From Pelagomonas calceolata (taxonomy: Eukaryota > Sar > Pelagophyceae > Pelagomonadales > Pelagomonadaceae): a stretch of 64,000 bases of DNA. The stretch lies in NCBI GenBank assembly GCA_918797485.1, contig CAKKNE010000001.1, positions 2,728,001-2,792,000 on the forward strand. The letters are read 5' to 3'. Position 1 is the stretch's first letter. The number at the start of each line of letters is the position of its first letter. Positions 5,904-47,091 of this stretch are shown here, one piece after another. The notes below the pieces were generated by a model. It had not been told where the DNA came from. It saw nothing but the letters and a program-made list of their open reading frames with translations, and ran no database searches. The translations under genes were made by a program, and so were the position numbers.

Positions 5904-7353
5904 ATGGCTATATCTTGCCTGTTCCTCACAGACGCGAAAGGAAAAGTAATCATTGGCCGAAACTATCGCGGTGACATTCCAACATCGACTTCAGAAAGGT
6001 ATACCTGCTTAGCTCTTTTTCAATATGCTATGCAAACTCAGATTTGCTCAATATATTCAAGATAAAGATGAGATGGATCAACGTCCAATATTCACAGAGG
6101 GTGGATGTACCTTTGCTTACATCAAGGTTTGAAACTGATACAAAACTGAGAATAATCTTTCCATACTTCACAGCACAACAACCTGTTCCTGACCTGTGTC
6201 ACCAGGAAGAATTCGAATGTGGCTCTAGCTTTGATGACGTTGTATCGCTTGATAAGTGTGAGGCCCACGTTACTGAGCATCGAAAAAATCCTGACGATCA
6301 GGTTTTCAAGGACTACTTTGGTGGGCTAGACGAGGAAAGCATTCGGGATAACTTTGTTGTCATCTATGAGCTCATGGATGAAACTTTGGATTTTGGCTAC
6401 CCCCAGTCACTTGATGCGAAAATTTTGCGAGAGTAGGTCATTAATGCCGCTCCCATATAAACCATTTTAGCAGGTTCATCACTCAAAAAAGTAATCGACA
6501 CGAGATTGCACCAAGACCTCCAATTGCCGTCACCAATGCCGTTTCCTGGCGCAGCGAGGGCATAAAGCACAGAAAAAATGAAATATTCCTCGATGTCATT
6601 GAAAAACTGAATCTTCTAGTTTCTGGCAATGGTGGCGTTCTCAATTCAGAGATAATCGGTGCAATAAGAATGAAATCATACCTCAGCGGCATGCCCGAGC
6701 TGAAGCTGGGTCTCAACGACAAGCTTATGTTCGAGGCTACCGGCAGGTCAATCGCACGGGGCAAAGCAGTCGAACTTGAGGACATCAAGTTTCATCAATG
6801 TGTGCGCCTTGCTCGTTTTGAGAATGATCGCACCATATCATTCATTCCACCTGATGGTGAATTTGATTTGATGACATACAGGCTGACCACTCAAGTTAAA
6901 CCGCTTATTTGGGTTGAGGCTGTAGTTGAGCCACACTCTCACAGTCGAATAGAGTACATGGTCAAAGCAAAAAGTCAGTTCAAGAGTCGTTCTGTCGCCA
7001 ATAGTGTGGATATTGTTATACCAGTCCCCCACGATGTGGATTCGCCTTCGTTTAAATCGAGTATTGGTTCAGTAAGCTATCTTCCAGATCGCAATGTCAT
7101 CATTTGGAGTATAAAGCAGTTCAATGGCGCAAGAGAGTACTTGATGCGTGCGCATTTTGGTCTACCTTCTGTCTCTGGTGAGAACCCAGATCGTTGGAAA
7201 GCTCCAATTGAAGTTAGATTCGAAATTCCTTATTTTACGGTTTCTGGCATTCAAGTTCGGTACCTCAAAATCATCGAAAAAAGCGGTTATCAAGCACTTC
7301 CGTGGGTCCGTTACATCACCCAAAACGGCGACTATCAGTTGCGCATGACATGA
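5904..7353 (+). CDS. AP-1 clathrin adaptor medium (mu) subunit, 5 exons
   Basis: Exons 5904-5998, 6042-6126, 6174-6257, 6302-6432 and 6474-7353 give a 424-residue protein, the normal AP-1 mu length (about 423). Introns are 43, 47, 44 and 41 nt and all GT-AG. AP-1 mu is part of the tetrameric adaptor that recruits clathrin at the trans-Golgi/endosome and reads YxxPhi sorting signals. The N-terminal longin-like part has DAKGKVIIGRNYRGD and HNNLFLTCVTRKNSN; the middle has EESIRDNFVVIYELMDE and NAVSWRSEGIKHRKNEIFLD; the cargo-binding mu-homology domain ends in GYQALPWVRYITQNGDYQLR, the diagnostic AP-1 C-terminus. The ATG at 5904 gives the family-typical N-terminus. The extra C-terminal Met-Thr is minor. 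Identity is near certain; only exact splice bases are inferred. Confidence 0.95.
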
Positions 7354-8730: not shown

Positions 8731-8793
8731 AGAGAGGTCCCTTGCGCCGGTCCAACCCGCACGCATGGTGAGCGAAGATAGAGACAAACCCCG

Positions 8794-10558
8794 ATGACAG
8801 CTTTATGGGCGTCAGTTGGCGTTATTACAATTTTGTTGTTGTTGGTATATAGATACATATTTACAACAACATATGAGATCTCCAACGAAACTCTGTTCAG
8901 AGAGGAAGGCCCGAAAGCTCTGGCGGCAACTGCTAGCGATGGATTTGAAGCAGTGAAGGCATTGCCTTGGCCTCGGAGTTTGCCGGGCCTCAAGCAAATT
9001 GACAAATACAAAGCCCTGAAAAGACATGTTCTGGCGCAATGGAACGAAAACGAAGACATGAAAGCTGAGGTTCGCCAGCAACTACGACATGCACTGATGG
9101 ACCGTTGTCAAGTTCATATTACATGGCTACTGCGGGTGGAAAGAGAGCAGCAGTCAATCGAGCGAATGGCTCGTCGAGGAATGATGTCTGAATCCGACTT
9201 GAAAAAATTCGCACGGTTCTCTCAACTTTTAGACACGGAGGTTAACGATGTTCGACACGAAGCAGGGTGGCTTTGTGATGATTTGGAGCGCAGCCAACAG
9301 GCCTCAGAAGAAATTTGGTGCGCAAAAATCTTTTGTGTGCATGAAAATATCTATCTCTAGGCGGATTGCCGTGCAAATATGGAACCAAAGGCGGCAGGAG
9401 GATGCAGCTCGTGCACGTGCCTTAAAAGCAACGACTGAAGATGCAGCTCGGCGCCGTGATGCTGGCAGTGGTCTGAAGGGTTTGAAGGGAGGTTTTTTGG
9501 GTAAGGTGATAGATTCTAAGCCCAGCAGTTCAAGACAATTTGCTTCTACTCAGCCGGCATTCAAACCCATGACGTGGCCAGAGACTCATCCTAGAGAACG
9601 CGCTATCCAAGAGTATGAATTTATCAAGGCTGGTTTCCTCAACCAGGACCAGGACAAAGGCGAGGCTGTAGGGAGAGCTAGACAGCGTTTAAGAGATGCC
9701 CTCTTGCAGCGATGCCAACAGCAGATACCGTGGATTCTTAGCCTGCGGCAAGAGCAACAGCGGACACGTATTGCCACGGAGCGTGCAAGATGGCAGTCCA
9801 GTGAAATCCCAACAGCTGAATATTTGAGCACACTCCAAGTCTTCGAAACTAAGTGCAAGATGGAATCAGCCAGCATTCAGGAGGAGGCTGAATGGCTTGG
9901 GGAACAAGACGGCACTCCAGGAATGGGAGAAAAGATATGGTCAATGGCGTTTGAGCTTCACGCCAAGGCCAATGCCCAAAATACGAAACGCGAGAGATTA
10001 CTCCAACTACACCAAGAAAAGATTCTCCAGACTTATGCGGCAGGAACTGCAAAACCCTGGCCAGCTGACCTACCGGGCGTCAAACAGCGTTCAATCTATG
10101 ACCAGATGAAGTCGGCAGCATTACAGCAACTGTCTCAACCTGCTCAGGCCGCAATGCTTCAGGGTCATACCGCACCCCGGGTGGTTGGAGAACGGGCTGC
10201 TCGCCAGCTACGTGCTGCCCTGATGGCACGCTGCCAGCAGGTAATACCTCTTATTCAGCGCCTCCAGGCTGAAGGTTTTGTCTTCAACAAAGCTGTCGAG
10301 CTTGGTCATGTTAATGAAAAAGACATTGCTTGCTTCGAGGCAGTTGATACCAGTGTTAAGGCTGAGATCGAAGCAGTTAAGAGTGAAGCTAATTGGCTCT
10401 CTGATAATTCTGGAACTAACGTTGGCATGGGGGAGCAGATCTGGCCTGCCGCCTTTCAGATTTACACCAGGCGGCGCGCTGAGGTCACAAAGCAAATCCA
10501 AACTGCCCAGACGAATCCCCTCACTATAAACACTGTGTTTGCAGATGTGGTTGATTAA
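8794..10558 (+). CDS. Membrane-anchored protein with three tandem Sec66/Sec71-like domains
   Basis: Two exons, 8794-9317 and 9361-10558, joined across a 43-nt GT-AG intron, give 573 residues. A membrane segment (VGVITILLLLVYRYIF, residues about 8-23) precedes three copies of a helical domain. Each has the pattern LRxALxxRCQ, a central ExxDLKKF-like helix, an acidic EAxWL helix and a terminal GMGExIWxxA motif, at about residues 92-180, 279-370 and 451-545. Each is led by a WP..LPG.K...Y linker. Yeast Sec66 (Sec71), the non-essential Sec62/Sec63 partner in post-translational ER translocation, is about 206 residues with one N-terminal anchor and one such domain; alignment by eye fits its core. 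The splice choice is supported because it rebuilds the first EEIWRIAVQI motif to match EKIWSMAFEL and EQIWPAAFQI in the other copies. The gene lies between two copia fragments. The assignment could be a looser helical family, but the triplication is plain. Confidence 0.72.
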
Positions 10559-22530: not shown

Positions 22531-24371
22531 TTAAAAGAAGCTCGTGCCAACCCTGGAAGTTGTGACCATGTGGTTTGCATCGACGACAGTTGATTGCTCC
22601 ATGCGGTCCATTAGGGTGGTTTGTGGTGGTGCTTTTACTTTTCCATTGACTATTAAGAGTGGGTTAGAAGCTTGCATCACGCTATCGTTGACCGACACAC
22701 CGTCGAAATACTGCTTAAGAATAGCCTGAAGTTCTGTGTTTTCCTGCTCGAGACCCTTCCGCTCGCTCTCGATTGCCAGTTTGTCAAGTAGCACCTTGTT
22801 GTATTTCTGGAGAAATTGGTCTAGGTGACTCCATTTTGGTACAGGGCCTCCATCATGCATCCACGTCGATGTCTGTAAAGCCAGTGCGTTGTGATGCACT
22901 TCAGCCTTACCGCCACTCTCAAAATATGCATGGTCTAGCAGACCAGAGGTATCAGTAGCACGTTTTGCACTCGATATGGCAGCTGTTGGGTTGCTTGGAT
23001 CTATGGTGTTTTGGAAAGGGACGATTTTTTCTTGCTCTGTCTCCATCCTACGGGCCATTTCTGCCAGTACAATAATTCTCTCTGCAAGAACGACTCGTTT
23101 AGATATCTTCTGCTTGCATGTATGTGCATCTTGGGTCAATTCAGCAAGCCGGCAAATCTGGACTCGACGGAACATGTTCATTCGCACCTTGAGCTGTTGA
23201 AAATAGTACAAAACTTTATTTTTTTCGAGCAAGAGAACCTCATTCCGTTGTGCACTCTCTCTTGTGTTCTGCGTGAGCTTGGTGCGCCAGTGATGTAGAT
23301 TTGCCTGTAGACGTTCAATCTTCCTTATCTTGATTTCAATCTCTTTTGATAGCTCCTGGTCCTTCTTTGTATAGTACTTGAAGTCATGAGTTCGTTGATC
23401 TGTGGTTTGGAGATAATTAAGATGAGCAGTTTCAAAATGTTGTTCAAGATCCTCGATCTCTGAATCAAGGCCAATACGGAGCATGTTTATCTCCTCCAGG
23501 TTCCTATTTCGTATCTCCTCGCCCAATTGGTCGTGCTCTTGCTTTGTATCTGCACCGTGCTCTTGTTCCTCTCTATCAATAGCAGCAATGACGTCATGTA
23601 ATTCTCTTTCATTTGCCACATGTTGCTTCACAATGGCCCCCTTTTCTGCTTGGAACTCCACTTCTAAGGTACAAAGCTCGTGTTCGAATTCCTGTTCCGA
23701 CTTCAGTAGTCGAGTATCCTGCAAGTCAATAAGATGGTCTACGTTCTGGAGATGAGATCGCAGCGACATGTGAAACTGCCCTTCAGCTTCTTCCAGGTCC
23801 CGGTCCAGCATCTGAATGATTGCGTCCTTTCGATCAACGTCACGTTCGTGGTTTTGCGAGAGAATTTCAATGCCTTTGCGAAGCGACTCCACCTTCGCCA
23901 GACGCATGATCTTGCGCCACTGATTCTGGATTTTAAGCTGATTTATTTGTGCGTTCGCTCTCTCTTGCTCCATTCGCCGATTCAACTCATTTCGAGCTAC
24001 CTGATATTTTTGGTTCTGCGCGTCATACTCACGCTGCCGCATGAACTTTTCCTCAAGGTCAAGTCCCGGGGTCCGGCCCTTGAGAGACTTCCCCAACAGT
24101 GCTCCTCCAAGCATTCGCGGCAGCAATAATAGAACCGAGCCGTCGGACAGCAGCTCCTCTAGATTGAGTCGCCTTGGACCTCCCAACATCTTTCGAGATG
24201 ATTTGAGTATGTAGTCGAATGTGTTGATCCGTGAAGCCACCATGTCAAGTAAATTGCCCAACGTAGCATTTGGCCCCGTCCGCACAACAAGGTCCTAAGC
24301 GACATTACTCTGAGAGGACTATCGAAATTAGGTTATCTAACCTGCTCACCAAGCTGAACAATCAGCTGCAT
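22531..24371 (-). CDS. DRC2: Dynein regulatory complex subunit 2 (DRC2/CCDC65) with N-terminal ubiquitin-like domain
   Basis: Exon 1 (24371-24342, MQLIVQLGEQ) joins across a 47-nt GT-AG intron to exon 2 (24294-22531), giving 597 residues. Residues from about 90 on are a long coiled coil matching CCDC65/DRC2: QLKIQNQWRKIMRLAKVESL, a KGIEILSQNHERDVDRKDAI block, then EAEGQFHMSLRSHLQNVDHL; the C-terminal YNKVLLDKLAIESERKGLEQ and ILKQYFDGVSVNDSVM with NPLLIVN are diagnostic. DRC2 pairs with DRC1 and DRC4 in the base plate of the nexin link and is required for its assembly. Residues 1-74 form a ubiquitin-like domain: MQLIVQL, DLVVRTGPNATLGNLL, YILKSSRKMLGG and a last strand DGSVLLLLPRMLGG ending in Leu-Gly-Gly at 72-74, almost exactly the length of ubiquitin (76). 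Animal DRC2 (about 484 residues) has no such domain. Whether the diglycine is cleaved is inference. Confidence 0.93.
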
Positions 24372-25175
24372 TCTTTTGCCTCCGCAAACACCGCACGCGT
24401 TGTGCCGCGCAGACGTGTAAGATACACGCGTAAGTAAGGGCATACTGCGGTAAGTAGTGAGCCTGAGAGGTTACCAGAAACCAGTACAATGACAGCAGAG
24501 TAATTAATTGGGGGATCTTTGTTCTTTGCTCAGTTGTAGCCCATACATAAGGCGTGGCCTGGCTTGACTTGAAGGCCGGCCACTTTGGAAGAGCTAGAAG
24601 GTCACGGTCACGGCCCGGGTTAGCCTCAGGCTCCGAGTCAGGCTGAGGAGCCAGCTTGAGCCCGGGCCAGAACTTGAACAGTTACCGTGACCCGAATGGT
24701 ACTGTGCTACTGGCCTCTAGGCTCCCCTCGAGATTGTGACCGGCCACTGAACCTTCCGAGTCAGCGATATTAGCTTTGGTATGTGCGTGCTTGAATCTAA
24801 TGAGCTGGGTGCAGCAACTTGAAGTGCACAATGCAGCTGTTGTAGCTAGGTCTCTCGGGTGTCAATGTGACACGGAGATACCAACAGGAAGGACTCTCAC
24901 TGAAACGTGAGAGTGTCACGGTGGGAACCCCCTCAACTCTGATAAGACAGAATTAGGGGACACCCCCCGTCTCCCTCCCGGCCCTCCCTTTTTGGTGGCG
25001 GGGCTCTTAGGCCTCCCTTTTTGGTTTCGCCCTTTGGGCGACAACAGAGCAAAAGAATAAAATCCCAACTACTAGTCTGTTGCTATTCCACTATTCCACT
25101 ATTCCACATGCTACTAGACCCTACCAGCTGTAGGACTAGGTAGCATGCTACTACTCGCCACCATCCTTTCCTGCC
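24372..25175. other. Intergenic between two divergent genes, word-rich
   Basis: It separates DRC2 (minus) and exportin-2 (plus), so it holds two promoters. No gene is seen. Positions 24590-24780 are a dense example of the short-word vocabulary (GGTCACGGTCACGGC, CCTCAGGCTCCGAGTCAGGC, ACAGTTACCGTGACC). ATTCCACT is repeated in tandem near 25085-25108. Confidence 0.5.
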
Positions 25176-39994: not shown

Positions 39995-40230
39995 AGATCT
40001 CCGAGTCTCTAGAGGCTCGGTGCTCCGCCGAGTCCTTCAAGTTCAAGTTTTCCTTTAGGATATTCCTTCCTTAATTATATATTAGAAATAGTTGTTAGTT
40101 CTCTGATTGTTGTTGGAAGTACTATAGTGTGTTCCCAGGGGTCTTTTGCTTTTGGCCGGTTTAAATTTTTTCAAGGTTGGCGCGTAGGCTATTGCGCGCC
40201 AGCTCCGCTCGGTGTAGGAATACATTGAGC

Positions 40231-43200
40231 ATGAGAGCGGATCCCATTCCCAAGCCTCCACCAAAACTCGGGATTTCGCATGCAACACGCGAAGAGCGTG
40301 AGTGTTTTACCTTGTTCCAGCAGCACGATGGCAGGAAACGCAAGACTAAGGATATCCCGGGTTGGTCTCCTATTCCGCCGATAGAGTGCCGCGATGGACC
40401 TGATGAAGCATGTAACGAGACAAGCGAGACTAAACAAGGTGAGAAACCCAAGCAGAATGCGTTTGACAGGATCATGACAGCAGACCAAAGGCGACGCTCT
40501 AAAAAGCGAAGCTCAAAGGCAGTAGGTAACCAGGATGCCGAATTTGATCAAACAGAATTCGCATCCAGATATTGGCTAGACGAATCCTTGCCTGTGCTAT
40601 CTCGACCAGAGGAAATATTTGGAGATATTGTCCGGCGCTTCCCCGAGATAAGTGACTTAGCGAGCAAAATGGAAAGACCGTTGCGAGTTGCAACTATGTG
40701 CAGTGGCACAGAAGCCCCACTCTTAGCCTTGGAACTTGTATCGCGTGCCTGTGAAGTTCAAAAAGAGAGCCCCCTCGCAGTTACACACGTCTTTTCAAGT
40801 GAAGTTGAACCTTTCAAGCAGGCTTATATCGAACGTAATTTCGCACCGCCTCTTCTATTTCGGGACGTTCGGGAACTTGGCAGCAGGCAAGCACACACGG
40901 CCTTTGGTTCACTTGAAAATGTGCCGCGTCAACGTGGTGACGTGGATATTCTAGTTGCCGGCACGTCATGTGTTGACTACTCTAATCTTAACACTTGTAA
41001 GAAGACATTAGAGCAGTTAGGGGAATCTGGTCAGACGTTCTATGGCATGTTCGAGTGGGTGCAAAGAGCACGGCCGCCTCTAGTACTTCTAGAGAACGTA
41101 TGTGGCGCACCGTGGAAAGGAATGATTCGAAACTTTGAAGCAATCAACTACCGTGCTCAAGCAGTTCGTCTTGATACCAAGAATTACTACCTCCCTCAAA
41201 CTCGCACTCGAGGCTACCTTCTGGCCATTGCAGACGAAGTGGCATTGCCTGATGTAATTCATCGCTGGGAAAGACAACTCCGCGCTATGGAACGCAATGC
41301 ATCCGCAAGCCTTGAAGCTTTTATGCTTGACGCCCACGATCCACGTGTTCAGGCAGCGCGGGAAGACCTCAGCTACAAAAAGAAAGATAAGGAAGATACG
41401 CCCTGGGACAAGTGTGAGGCGCGACATGCTCGAGTTCGTATTGAGGAAAAACTTGGACAAAAGCGCCCGCTAACTAACTGGGTGCATGGCGTGAATGCTG
41501 CATCTCTGCCGGACTTCGCTTGGCGCGACTGGGCGGGTGCTCAAACAGAGCGGGTTCTCGACAGTATGGATATAGACTACATGCGCCTCGTCAAGCGCCG
41601 CGAAGATGCAAACTTCAAGACAAGTGTGTGGGATTTATCTCAAAATGTAGATCGATCTGACCCGACCAAAGCTAAGCTGGGAATATGTCCATGTCTCACG
41701 CCTTCCTTGTGTGCCTACGTCACTAATCAGGGCCGGCCCGTCGTCGGTGTCGAGACCCTCGCTCTGCAAGGTATCCCAATTGATGACCTCTTGCTCACTC
41801 GTGAGACCGAAGAGAATCTCACCTCGCTCTCCGGGAACGCTATGTCTACGACGGTTGTTGGATCTGCTCTTCTTGCTGCGCTTCTTTCACTTCCCATGGG
41901 CGTCCTTGGGCGCATAGGAATTGTTGATTCAAAAGCCTGCGCAAGACATTTGGACACTAATTATCCAGTCCAACACCATAGCACGCGAGGTAGCGATCGA
42001 CATGCAAATGTTGTAAGATCGCAAGTTCTGGTTCGGGAGCCGCTGGAATTGGGTGCAACAATTCCAAAGTACTTTCAAGGTGCTGGGTCATTCGCGGAAC
42101 GTGTCCTTCACGCCGCTTCCCAGAGCGCCAAGCGGTGCGTCTGCGAGGCTCAGCGGACTAATTCTTCGTCCAGGGTTCTCTACTGCACTGCCTGTGGTCA
42201 CAGCGCTTGCGAGGCATGCGCAGGCAAACCAGAACACACTCAGTACAAAGTGGATTGTCGGGGTCGGGTATCTCCTGAGGAATTTGAGGTTGCTCTTGGG
42301 TTGGCACTCCCAACAATTGTCACTCTTTCTGGCTTGTCGACAGCTTCTCTCTGCAAATTACGCCCAGAAACTGCTGGCCTCTCTCGTAATCTGCCTGCAA
42401 GCAAGAAACGCAAGTCAGAAATGGGTGCTATCGCACAAACTGCCCTCGACGATGAGGTCTGGAGGAGATGGGTTGAAATTGTGTCTCATCTTGACAGAGC
42501 AAGTTTTCGTCTAGTTGAGATGAGACGATGTGTTGAATGTTGGAAAGTACGATACACAGATGCGTCAAGCGCCCTTGTTCTTGAACTGACATTAGGAGGT
42601 GTATATGGAATTGTATGGCATGCATTTGTTGAGCCACCTCGGGGGCGAGGTCCACTGCGAGACCGGCTTGAAGGTTTCGCAGTTCTTCGCGGTTTCGTTG
42701 AGAGTACGGGGGACAGCCTCTTGGATGCCAACTGGAGTTTGCGGCTGCCAATTGATGATGATATTGACCTTGAGCTGAGCTACGATGGGCCTGTGGTAGA
42801 ATCGTTTGCATCATCCTTTGGAATGGAAGATGAGAATATGATCGGCAAACAACGCTATTCACATATCAATGTGAAAGTGCTGAAGGGTGCCTCGTATCTT
42901 GATGAAGATGTATCTGGACGTCGACAACAGCGTCTATGTTTCCCCTTAACCTGCCCCACCACTAGTGCCCCCCTCTCCCTTCATTCAATACACAGCGACG
43001 GCCTTGTCTCACCGGCAATAACCCTGTGTTGTGCAGGTTATGTGCTACTGCATAAATGTGCCGCGCCTTTGGGCTCCCTCCATAAGAGGTTGGGAAACGA
43101 CAGACCAGAACTTTATCTCTTTCTTGAATCCAAGCCTGTTGGTCCTGCAGCATTGGATACCTACGTCTTTGCGCGTGACTGGCGACGTCTTGCTCTGCGC

Positions 43201-46200
43201 GAAGCACGGTCATCACTCGTGTGCTCACTCCAGAGAGGTTGGCACCCACTTGAGTGTACTAAAGATAAGGCCAATGTTACAGAGATTAAGACATCAACTA
43301 TTTTGGGGCGTTGGGTGCCTATTAGTGCTGATATTTCCCAGGTTAATGCGGCCGCATATACAGAGCAAGTTCAAACAGCCATTTCCGTGAACGTTTCCTC
43401 TCCCTGGAACGCAAGTTCCATTCTTGAGATCGCAGTCGATCTCGGGGATCTCTGTGCGACGTCAGTATCGCCTGTCTGGGGGGGGGCATCGACAGTACAT
43501 CCTGAACAGTGGAAGTCGCTCACTCTGAGGGTGGTAGGCGCGTGTGGTGCTGTCGCATCGGCGTCAAAGATGGCCTTAGGGTTTCTGGTACCTCGACTGA
43601 AATTACCAGTGGCACTCTCTGTCTGGCAGACAGTACAAGGGGGGTCCAGACTTGCAGCCAAAGTCCGGGCCGGACTGCCATGTTGCACGACATGTGCTCC
43701 CCTAGCACCAACACTAAGCTGGGTTAAAGTAGCGGGGAAATCGAATCAATTCACCGCCATTGAAGACCCATACCTCGCAGGTGAGTACGAGCGAGCGCTA
43801 AAAAACCGACCCGCCGCCTTCGAACTAGATTCTAAACGCGAAAAACAGCAGAATGCTGATATCGGCTTTCTACGTATCGCCATTAATCCCGTTGCCATTG
43901 CTGTGCGGGCGTTCTCTGCGCTCCCGCGGTTCCTTCAGGCACGAGCTGACGGCGAAGGGAAGGTCCAACTTGACTTTCGGATTGTTAGTAGTAATTTTGG
44001 CAGGACAATGCTGCCCGCTCGCTCATTTTCTCTTTGTAGCAATCGTGTTGACGAACAGGCTCCCCAGACTCCTGGTTTTGGCAATGCAGCATCGGCACTG
44101 CGGCCTGAACAACTTCGGTCATTAACTTGGATGCAGCGCATGGAGGCAACATGTGAGCCCTTTATTGAGGAAGAAGTTGTAGATGAAGCTCTTTCTGTTC
44201 TTGGCTGGCGAGCAGAAGCTCGTGTGCAAATTCCTGTTGTGGTCCGAGGGGGTGTGCTTGCAGATGCGGTTGGCTATGGAAAAACTGCAATTACGCTTGC
44301 ATTGATTGACGCGCAGTGGCGAGACCAAGCCCCAGAGCTCCCTCCACACCTCTTGGGCAAGGCTATTCCCTGTAAGGCCACTCTCGTTATCGTACCTAAG
44401 CACCTCATGGCACAGTGGCCAAGTGAGCTAAGAAAATTCCTCGGTGATCGCTACAAGTGCCTTACGATTATGAGTGTCGGTGATCTAATGCGGCTTACAA
44501 TCCCAAAAGTTCTCGATGCGGAAATCATTATCATGTCGGTGCAGACTTTCAGATCAAAGGCGTATTTTGATCATCTTGCTGAATTTGCCGCGGTCCATGC
44601 TTTCCCGAGCAAGGGTGGGCGGTACTTTGAGGAGGTTCATAGTCGGGCTCTCCAAAACATAGAAAAGTATGTTTCCGCGTTTCAAGCTTCTGGCCAAGCA
44701 GGTCTTGATTCCATGCGAAAGGCTGATAAAAAATCCCTGAGGGTGACACTAGCTGTGAATACTAGTAAGAAGCAAGCCTACGAGAGCGGGGTGCCCCTGC
44801 GGGGGGCGCGTGAATCCAAGGTTGCGCAGAGAAAAAAGTCATCGCCCAGTGTTGTGGAATACTTTTCGTCGGATGATAGTGAACAAGAAGAAAAGGCCTT
44901 TGTCAAACCGAGGGTGGAGTCGGTACGCACTAAGCGCCCTGGTCCAAAGGCACCACCTCTTGAAATGTTTTATTTTGCCCGAAAAGTCGTGGATGAGTAT
45001 ACATACTTGGACCATCGTGATGTTCCAACTGTACAAGCCATCAAGGCACGTTGCTCGTGGGTTCTATCTGGCACCCCACCACTCGAGTCCTTCGATGACG
45101 TTAAGGGCATAGCAGCATACTTGGGAGTGCATCTTGGGGCGAGCAATCCTGTGGTACTCACCAAAAAAGGTGATCGTCCAACTGATTCGCGTAAGGAACT
45201 GTCCAAGTCAGAGCTGTTTCAGGAGTTCTTGGAAGCGAAGTCCCAGTCGTGGCATGCGCGTCGCCAGGATGTTGCACAGAGATTTTTGGACAGATTTGTA
45301 AGACAAAATGTAGCTGAAATAGATGAGATTCGCTTTCAAGCAACAATACAACGGGTAGTTATGCCTGCACCGGACCGTGCTGTGTATTTAGAGCTTGAGC
45401 ATCATCTCCATGCACTCGAAATGCAGAAGGTAAAGGCCGCAGCACGTGGTAAGAAGAAATTCCGTGATAAGAGTGATCGGGAGACCAGACTTTCAGAGGC
45501 TCTGGAAGGGAGCGCCGATGCTGAGGAGGCGCTCCTGAAACGATGTGCACGCCCAGCCTCGGCCCCCAATACGATAATGAATGGTAGTAGTGGCGACGGC
45601 AGCGATGTTACAGCCTGTTCTAACGTTGTGTCTAAGCGCGCTGCGGAGCTGGAGAATTGTGCAACTCAAATTGTCAGGGAGGTTGCTGCAGCACATCGCG
45701 TTGAGGAGGAGATTCGGCGTTGGGCTGCAGTGAGTATGTCCAGGCCTCTCAATGGAGACCGAGGGTGTGATAATATTTTCAAAAAGCACGGGAACAGCAT
45801 GTGGCAAGTTGATGGAGAAAAGAATGCTCGCGGACGGACCAAAAAAAAAGATAAACCTGGCAAACCATTCGATAAATTTACGGGTCACCAACATATGCGC
45901 GAGTGGTGGAACGAGCTAAATCAGGGAATTGGTGACAGTGATGCATCGGCCCAGTTGCTTGCGCTGGCTGCCGAAGGCCTAGCCATTGCAAGTCATAGTC
46001 TTAAAGGCGAGTCACATGAATTTGCATCTGGTATCGTACGTAGTCCCGAAGTAAGAAGAAGATTAGACGCACAGACCCGTCCTGAGATCATCAAGGCAAC
46101 CCGTTGTGTAGATCTTGTCTTTCCTGAACCAATTATTGAGGGCGAATCTGCTCCCGTGAGAAAACAACGGGATGACACTCTCAAAGAGCTTTTCTGGGCT

Positions 46201-47091
46201 CTGCGAAACCAAGTGTATGAACTACGAGCCTTGAACAAAGAGTACGTGGGCAGGACACGTTCCCTCCGATTCTTTCGGGCCATCGAGCAAGCTCAAAGAG
46301 AGTTTGTTGCTTCACAGCCGTTTTCATCATCTGATCAGGCGACTAACGTACAGATTCCACTCACCAATCGAGCCATCTTTTCATGCTGCGGTCATGTTGG
46401 CGAAACCTCAAAGATGCGTGCAGCAGCAGCCCGAGAGGAATGTCCAGCAGCTGGATGCCACGCAAATGTGCGCTCTCATTCTGTTGTGGAATGCGCATCG
46501 CTTTGCCTTAATGAAAGCAACTCAAATGCCAAGGCGGTCACTCATCATGGTGCCAAGCTTGCAGAAATCATAGATCTCGTGAGTGGTTTCCCAAAGGATG
46601 AGCGGGTCCTCATATTTGTTCAATTTGAGGATCTCCTGACCCAAGTACATGCTGTCCTCACTAAGGAGGGTTTCCCAGCGCTGAAGCTAAAAGGTACAGC
46701 TCATCAAATGTCGGCCATAATGTCAAAATTTCAAAAAGCGAAGTTGGGAAAGAATGATGAGCGCATACTTCTTCTAGAACTCCACAACGAGTCTGCATCT
46801 GGTGCGAACCTAACTGCTGCAAATCATGTGATCTTTGTGCACCCACTTCACGTAAGATGCACAGTCTTCCCCTAGTCTCATTTTTATCTTGATTCTTCTC
46901 CCTCTGAAAGTTGATTTACACAGGTCAAGACCTTACAGAATTACGTCATGTGTGAGACTCAGGCCATAGGGCGTGTTCGTCGTTATGGACAGCGGAAAAT
47001 TGTCCATCTTTACCGGTTCCTCGTCGATGACTCGATTGACATCAAAATATACAAACGTCGATGTGATGAGCAGGCAAAGCGTTTTCGTTGA
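40231..47091 (+). CDS. DNMT5: DNMT5-type cytosine-5 DNA methyltransferase with SNF2 ATPase
   Basis: Exon 1 40231-46851 and exon 2 46924-47091 (72-nt GT-AG intron) give about 2262 residues. DNMT5 is an ATP-dependent maintenance CpG methyltransferase. MTase motifs: MCSGTEAPLLALEL (motif I, about 155), VAGTSCVDYS (motif IV, catalytic Cys), LLENVCGAPW (VI), QTRTRGYLLAI (VIII) and SGNAMSTTVVGSALLAA (X, about 535). A Cys-rich finger follows (CVCEAQRTNSS...YCTACGHSACEAC, about 636-670). The SNF2 half has GGVLADAVGYGKTAITLALI (Walker A, about 1347), VPKHLMAQWPSEL, VVDEYTYLD (motif II, about 1588), WVLSGTPPLESFDDV (III), a RING-like CCGHVGETSK...CPAAGC (about 2050-2080), RVLIFVQFEDLLTQVHAVL and, in exon 2, QAIGRVRRYGQRKIVHLYRF (VI). 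All core motifs are present, so it looks active. The first in-frame ATG is at 40231; upstream in-frame codons lack ATG. Confidence 0.96.

Follow-up and report, generated by a model that had tools for sequence, protein, structure and literature searches.

The DRC2 gene and its surroundings

The window, by which we mean the whole 64,000-nucleotide stretch analysed (C1:2728001-2792000), belongs to a Pelagomonas calceolata assembly of 32,445,274 bases in 8 contigs, described as six nuclear contigs (32.4 Mb), a plastid genome of 90 kb and a mitochondrial genome of 39 kb (PMC9481584). The nuclear genome has a mean G+C content of 63%, each contig having a single region of 52% that averages 259 kb, and the authors suggest that the centromere lies in this low-G+C region (PMC9481584). 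Since the 4-kb blocks of the window range from 46.8 to 56.5% G+C, the window is probably part of such a trough.

A gene for the nexin-link subunit DRC2 is located on the minus strand (Table 1). Splice translation of the exon at 24371-24342 and the open reading frame at 24294-22531, which forms exon 2 and has TAA as its last codon, yields a product of 597 residues, with MQLIVQL at residues 1–7 and RMLGG at residues 70–74. This gene model, with its short first exon and clean 47-nt GT-AG intron, had been put forward in a sequence-only reading of the same DNA, all letters and coordinates of which are correct.

Table 1. Features of the DRC2 gene in window coordinates
Feature	Position	Strand	Basis or detail
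Candidate first coding exon, MQLIVQLGEQ (strand 1 and turn of the ubiquitin-like module)	24342..24371	-	30 nt, ATGCAG...GAGCAG
Intron, GT-AG, phase 0	24295..24341	-	47 nt, GTTAGA...CTTAG
Rest of the candidate ubiquitin-like module, residues 11-74, ending RMLGG	24103..24294	-	Ubiquitin, NEDD8 and Fubi alignments with shuffle and open-frame controls
Gly73-Gly74-Ala75, predicted protease junction	24100..24108	-	Ala75 aligned to residue 2 of Tetrahymena DRC2
DRC2 proper, residues 75-597	22534..24102	-	Pfam domains and PDB DRC2 chains
Stop codon TAA	22531..22533	-	Read from the sequence
Alternative upstream ATG, in frame with exon 1, adding 24 residues before MQLIVQL	24441..24443	-	Start-codon survey
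Met71 codon, start in the reading without a ubiquitin-like domain	24112..24114	-	C at -3

Two Pfam families match the product above their cut-offs, NYD-SP28 at residues 98–195 (1.1e-18, 67.6 bits) and NYD-SP28_assoc at residues 498–539 (2.6e-12, 47.1 bits). Among PDB chains, Chlamydomonas DRC2 (7ju4_2; 4.4e-105, 355.6 bits) scores best, far above DRC1 (47.7 bits). By these matches, the protein from about residue 75 onwards is certainly DRC2, as the earlier reading had it. A second, weak match on contig C5 is probably DRC1.

An AP-1 mu adaptin gene in the same window (5904-7350, plus strand) serves as a local splice-site reference. In a hand-built model, guided by the human AP-1 mu protein, its four introns measure 43, 47, 44 and 41 nt and have loose donors; because they span 41–47 nt, the 47-nt DRC2 intron is ordinary here. 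Two overlapping open frames at 8782-10555 (plus strand) match Sec66 in Pfam (9.9e-6 and 5.8e-5), and a PWP..LPG unit, seen by eye more than once, suggests tandem Sec66-like repeats. At 40165-46872 (plus strand), a 2236-codon open frame carries DNA methyltransferase and helicase motifs by eye and is a DNMT5-like candidate.

The first 74 residues and the junction with DRC2

DRC2 chains in the PDB place the native start of the protein at the end of the module. Residue 81 of the product aligns with residue 6 of chain 9fqr_Qu, which we take to be mammalian DRC2; the corresponding pairs (product, chain) are 92 and 23 for 8j07_2, 94 and 26 for 9e5c_1h, and 101 and 36 for the Chlamydomonas chain. In ungapped back-extension, these four chains start from 1 residue after to 9 residues before Ala75. 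When the query is taken from Ala75 onward, this residue aligns with residue 2 of Tetrahymena DRC2 (8tek_B; ALLGKSLKGRT versus ALLGKTLKGRS), 8TEK being the Tetrahymena N-DRC base plate (PMC10504270). The starts of the Tetrahymena chain and of 9fqr_Qu lie within one residue of the Gly-Gly junction. Because the PDB chains start there, the 74 residues ending in Gly-Gly directly precede the normal DRC2 start. This is the arrangement of ubiquitin-like (Ubl)-Gly-Gly precursors, with a Gly-Gly at the end of the module directly before the native start of the partner (LGG, then ALLGKSLKGRT), and this position of the junction, as seen in the alignments, is the strongest new point.

One of the six PDB DRC2 chains has a long extension of its own: by extrapolation, 9y6s_8B, from L. 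tarentolae (PMC12637542), carries about 78 residues before the Ala75 position. A composite query gave no alignment between the window module and this extension, and on this weak negative a homologous Ubl in the Leishmania extension was rejected.

Global alignment of the module to ubiquitin scores 38 (z 6.1), as high as which none of 2000 shuffles came. In local alignment, residues 1–74 are equalled by 9 of 2000 shuffles and residues 1–100 by 14 of 1000, or 28 of 1000 without exon 1. Shuffles that keep MQ and GG reach the ubiquitin score in 5 of 5000 cases, the NEDD8 score in 1 and the human SDE2 score in 13; keeping MQLIVQL and RMLGG raises these counts to 36, 2 and 64 of 5000. A second control grafted MQLIVQL and RMLGG onto open-frame 74-mers of the window, after removal of those holding three module marker strings; among the 2350 remaining, which overlap and many of which do not come from genes, 4 reach the ubiquitin score and 1 the NEDD8 score. 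For the 1328 grafted 74-mers taken from frames of at least 180 codons, the counts are 4 and 0. Sequence similarity to ubiquitin is thus beyond chance in the global, local and open-frame controls. With the long ends fixed, the Fubi score is reached by 1270 of 5000 shuffles and 429 of the 2350 open-frame 74-mers.

The test was calibrated on Ubls of the alga itself, of which 31 stretches of at least 60 residues were used and the 10 shorter ones among the 41 found were dropped. In the trimmed test, which gives the DRC2 module a z of 3.7, two of the 31 have lower values, and the Ubl of the genome's own SDE2 scores lower still (0.15); the value of the DRC2 module therefore lies at the weak end of the Ubls here. 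The module has two lysines, and the position of ubiquitin Leu71 is occupied by Pro69. When residues 1–95 are compared with ubiquitin joined to the genome's own S30, 0 of 2000 shuffles score as high, so the resemblance continues past the junction; we count this continuation as chance, because Tetrahymena DRC2 has the same stretch natively. Taken together, residues 1–74 do seem to resemble a diverged ubiquitin-like domain, with a likeness above chance and modest in degree.

Profile searches gave no significant ubiquitin-like family match. For residues 1–74, no Pfam family reaches its curated cut-off; at E values up to 10 only FERM_N, which has a ubiquitin-like fold, is listed (E 0.17), and it is absent from the Pfam lists for residues 1–95 and for the whole protein. 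A PDB sequence search with the module returned a single unrelated match (E 0.97) and nothing significant. An HMM built from the 41 own-genome Ubl stretches gives the module 2.6 bits, a value reached 48 times among 5000 shuffles and once among 580 decoys; for the HMMs of earlier rounds, 33 and 71 of 5000 shuffles and 3 and 1 of 580 decoys score as high. Two of the 580 decoys contain pieces of the module, and neither is a decoy scoring above it. AlphaFold (AF2) models of residues 11–130 and 11–78, made without an alignment and with strand 1 absent, are of low confidence, with mean pLDDT values of 60.5 and 69.4, and contain helices only, with no strands. A search of the host genome for a second copy of the module found none at E values up to 10. 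No relatives of DRC2 occur among 434 pattern matches in bacterial and archaeal contigs or 156 in viral contigs, neither collection being eukaryotic.

Of the earlier proposal that the DRC2 N-terminus forms a ubiquitin-like domain, the alignment to ubiquitin beyond chance and the junction at the native DRC2 start speak in favour, and a significant family match is what it lacks. A ubiquitin-like N-terminal module is in our view the best reading, with translation of the exon and a putative beta-grasp fold supported, short of proof.

Coding signal and translation start

Codon usage of the part beyond exon 1 is among the results that speak against the module. Residues 11–80 score -3.2 bits. Of 347 open stretches presumed to be non-coding, 125 reach this value; among 180 coding pieces, all of them taken from the training genes themselves, no more than 14 are as low. 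Exon 1 alone scores +3.0 bits over its 10 codons, a point in its favour. Synonymous usage given the amino acids is -2.7 for residues 11–74, lower than in any of the 15 overlapping pieces taken from the DRC2 body. Codon usage thus does not support coding, and the low score may point to a leader or to a sequence that came from another part of the genome.

The survey of first exons covered 600 nt upstream, with introns of 30–300 nt, exons of up to 300 nt and the acceptor fixed. Six in-frame ATG-plus-GT first exons are possible, from two ATGs (24443 and 24371), the latter having A at -3. An alternative donor, GTGAGC at 24349, looks more canonical, and its use would shift the frame. In the unspliced order, ATG 24371 is followed by out-of-frame ATGs at 24305 and 24269 and then by in-frame ATGs at 24243 (G at -3 and +4) and 24189 (A at -3), all before Met71.

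These data bear on the possibility that there is no Ubl at all: the region would be an open 5' leader before Met71 or another late start, DRC2 would begin MLGGALLGKSLKGRT, which is an ordinary start, and the resemblance to ubiquitin would be due to chance, picked out by a reading on the lookout for such features. Codon usage that is not coding-like, the negative family searches in Pfam and the PDB, and a Tetrahymena DRC2 that starts at the same place are all consistent with it. However, the leader would have to stay open for 60 codons, and ribosomes would have to scan past ATG 24371 and the in-frame ATGs at 24243 and 24189, with their G or A at -3, to reach Met71, which has C there; moreover, even when supplied with the same ends, no more than 4 of the 2350 open-frame 74-mers equal the module in their match to ubiquitin. 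We regard this reading as somewhat doubtful. That the Ubl exon of DRC2 is real at all we consider fairly probable.

Known ubiquitin-like fusions and a possible precursor

The module can be compared with several known fusions. Its tail, RMLGG, is identical to what we take to be residues 70–74 of human Fubi. As in FUBI-eS30 (FAU) of holozoans, a 74-residue Ubl with an MQ start, an RMLGG end and few lysines is fused directly to an unrelated protein; unlike in FUBI-eS30, the partner is a flagellar coiled-coil protein rather than a ribosomal one, the interior is no closer to Fubi than shuffles are, and S30 in this alga has near-perfect ubiquitin as its fusion partner. A FUBI orthologue was rejected, as only the ends match Fubi and S30 is fused to ubiquitin elsewhere in the genome. 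Work on Fubi recognition discusses Gly69, Met71 and Leu72: USP36 takes up Met71 in a hydrophobic pocket, and Leu72 is one of the changes said to explain why related deubiquitinases fail where USP16 and USP36 recognise Fubi (PMC10611586).

The fusion of eS30 to near-perfect ubiquitin (LRLRGGGKVHGSLARAGKVKGQTPK) is found in two copies, at C5:44750-45151 and C1:44793-45194, ~45 kb from the contig starts. QIFVKTL is not preceded by a Met, so an upstream exon probably supplies the ATG, and very short first exons may occur in the ubiquitin-fusion genes of this alga.

With SDE2 the module shares a diverged N-terminal Ubl ending in Gly-Gly, and the last strand and tail match locally (DGSVLLLLPRMLGG versus HGAVYSLEPRLCGG of human SDE2). 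Human SDE2 differs in being a nuclear genome-maintenance protein, and its cut-site motif, GGKGGFG, is absent from the window protein as read, as is the SDE2 helical region. A paralogue or gene fragment of SDE2 was rejected on the absence of these features and the presence of a separate SDE2 at C2:45487. SDE2 shows that Gly-Gly cleavage, by a deubiquitinase-like activity, can act on a diverged Ubl of a non-ribosomal protein (PMC5131917). The alga's SDE2 gene, which has the GGKGGFG motif, lies around C2:45487; inspection by eye places its junction (VGGKGGFGQLLR) in an upstream frame and a Ubl of its own in front of the match. This Ubl is missed by PF13019, a yeast Pfam model, which is a limit of that model.

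The ubiquitin fusions of ribosomal proteins (Ub-eS31, Ub-eL40 and Ub-eS30), for which a cis-chaperone role has been proposed (PMC8354635), are likewise N-terminal with a diGly junction; they contain near-perfect ubiquitin, whereas the DRC2 module is about as diverged as the weakest genome Ubls scored. Finally, a ubiquitin-like domain is described in the ciliary-motility protein CFAP298/FBB18 (PMC8527833, PMC12633728); this Ubl has a large insertion, and CFAP298 is a cytoplasmic dynein-assembly factor, not the precursor of a structural axonemal subunit.

As the leading explanation we tentatively propose, with slightly less than even confidence, that DRC2 is made as a Ubl-DRC2 precursor, whose cleavage after Gly74 releases a normal N-terminus close to the nexin-link tip. 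The 74-residue ubiquitin-like domain would be joined directly to an otherwise normal DRC2, and a putative diGly protease (a deubiquitinase) would cut after Gly74 in the cytoplasm. The cut would leave DRC2 beginning ALLGKSLKGRTPG, the N-terminus that Tetrahymena obtains by starting translation there. The domain might act in cis to help a long coiled-coil protein fold or stay soluble, and might keep the N-terminus covered until assembly. UCH-family proteases are present in the host genome, with four matches, of which the two with equal scores are probably one duplicated locus.

Published structures indicate where this N-terminus would act. In the Tetrahymena model, DRC2 has an extended N-terminus that lies within the linker top and touches DRC8, and positively charged loops in this place, among them those of DRC2, make a connection to the next doublet (PMC10504270). 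In a second N-DRC model, apparently of Chlamydomonas, the proximal tip that faces the neighbouring doublet holds a cluster of flexible, lysine-rich loops or termini, which belong to DRC2, DRC4 and DRC11 (PMC10266980). In the window protein, the 13 residues that follow Gly74 have a net charge of +3. Because the DRC2 N-terminus lies in the linker top, an uncut domain would sit near the contact with the neighbouring doublet.

These positions also suit a genuine Ubl that stays on the protein and provides one more contact, with the neighbouring doublet or with DRC8, near the nexin-link tip, the Gly-Gly being a relic or linker; Pro69 might make the tail harder for a protease to cut, and CFAP298/FBB18 is already a ciliary protein with a ubiquitin-like domain. 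A permanent domain, however, needs neither a Gly-Gly at the native DRC2 start nor the RMLGG tail of Fubi, which is cut, and we consider it unlikely. That the module is coding and not a beta-grasp, being an unrelated N-terminal extension as may hold in the Leishmania DRC2 chain, would fit the roughly 78 extra residues of 9y6s_8B and the helices of the AF2 fragments, but those fragments omitted residues 1–10 and any alignment, and 2346 of the 2350 same-ended open-frame 74-mers score lower against ubiquitin, so that this reading is most improbable.

The earlier reading held that Ubl-Gly-Gly fusions are known, and knew of none on a nexin-link subunit. The S30 and SDE2 precedents bear out the first part, and for the second we found no report, in the open-licence papers searched, of a Ubl on DRC2 or the dynein regulatory complex; where the available excerpts pair CCDC65 with the term ubiquitin-like, the latter concerns CFAP298 and CCDC65 appears in a cited title.

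The Ubl-DRC2 precursor proposed here could have wider consequences. It is a rather doubtful prospect that an axonemal subunit is made as a Ubl precursor and a protease unmasks its N-terminus, with assembly gated by a deubiquitinase and each DRC2 releasing one free Ubl with an RMLGG tail that could be conjugated. Fusions of a Ubl or ubiquitin to S30 are described as having arisen three times (PMC10611586), and the DRC2 case, if true, would be an independent addition to them. The Ubl-Gly-Gly precursor, known for ribosomal proteins and SDE2, would then occur on a new class of partner, a nexin-link subunit, and flagellar assembly would be tied to diGly proteases.
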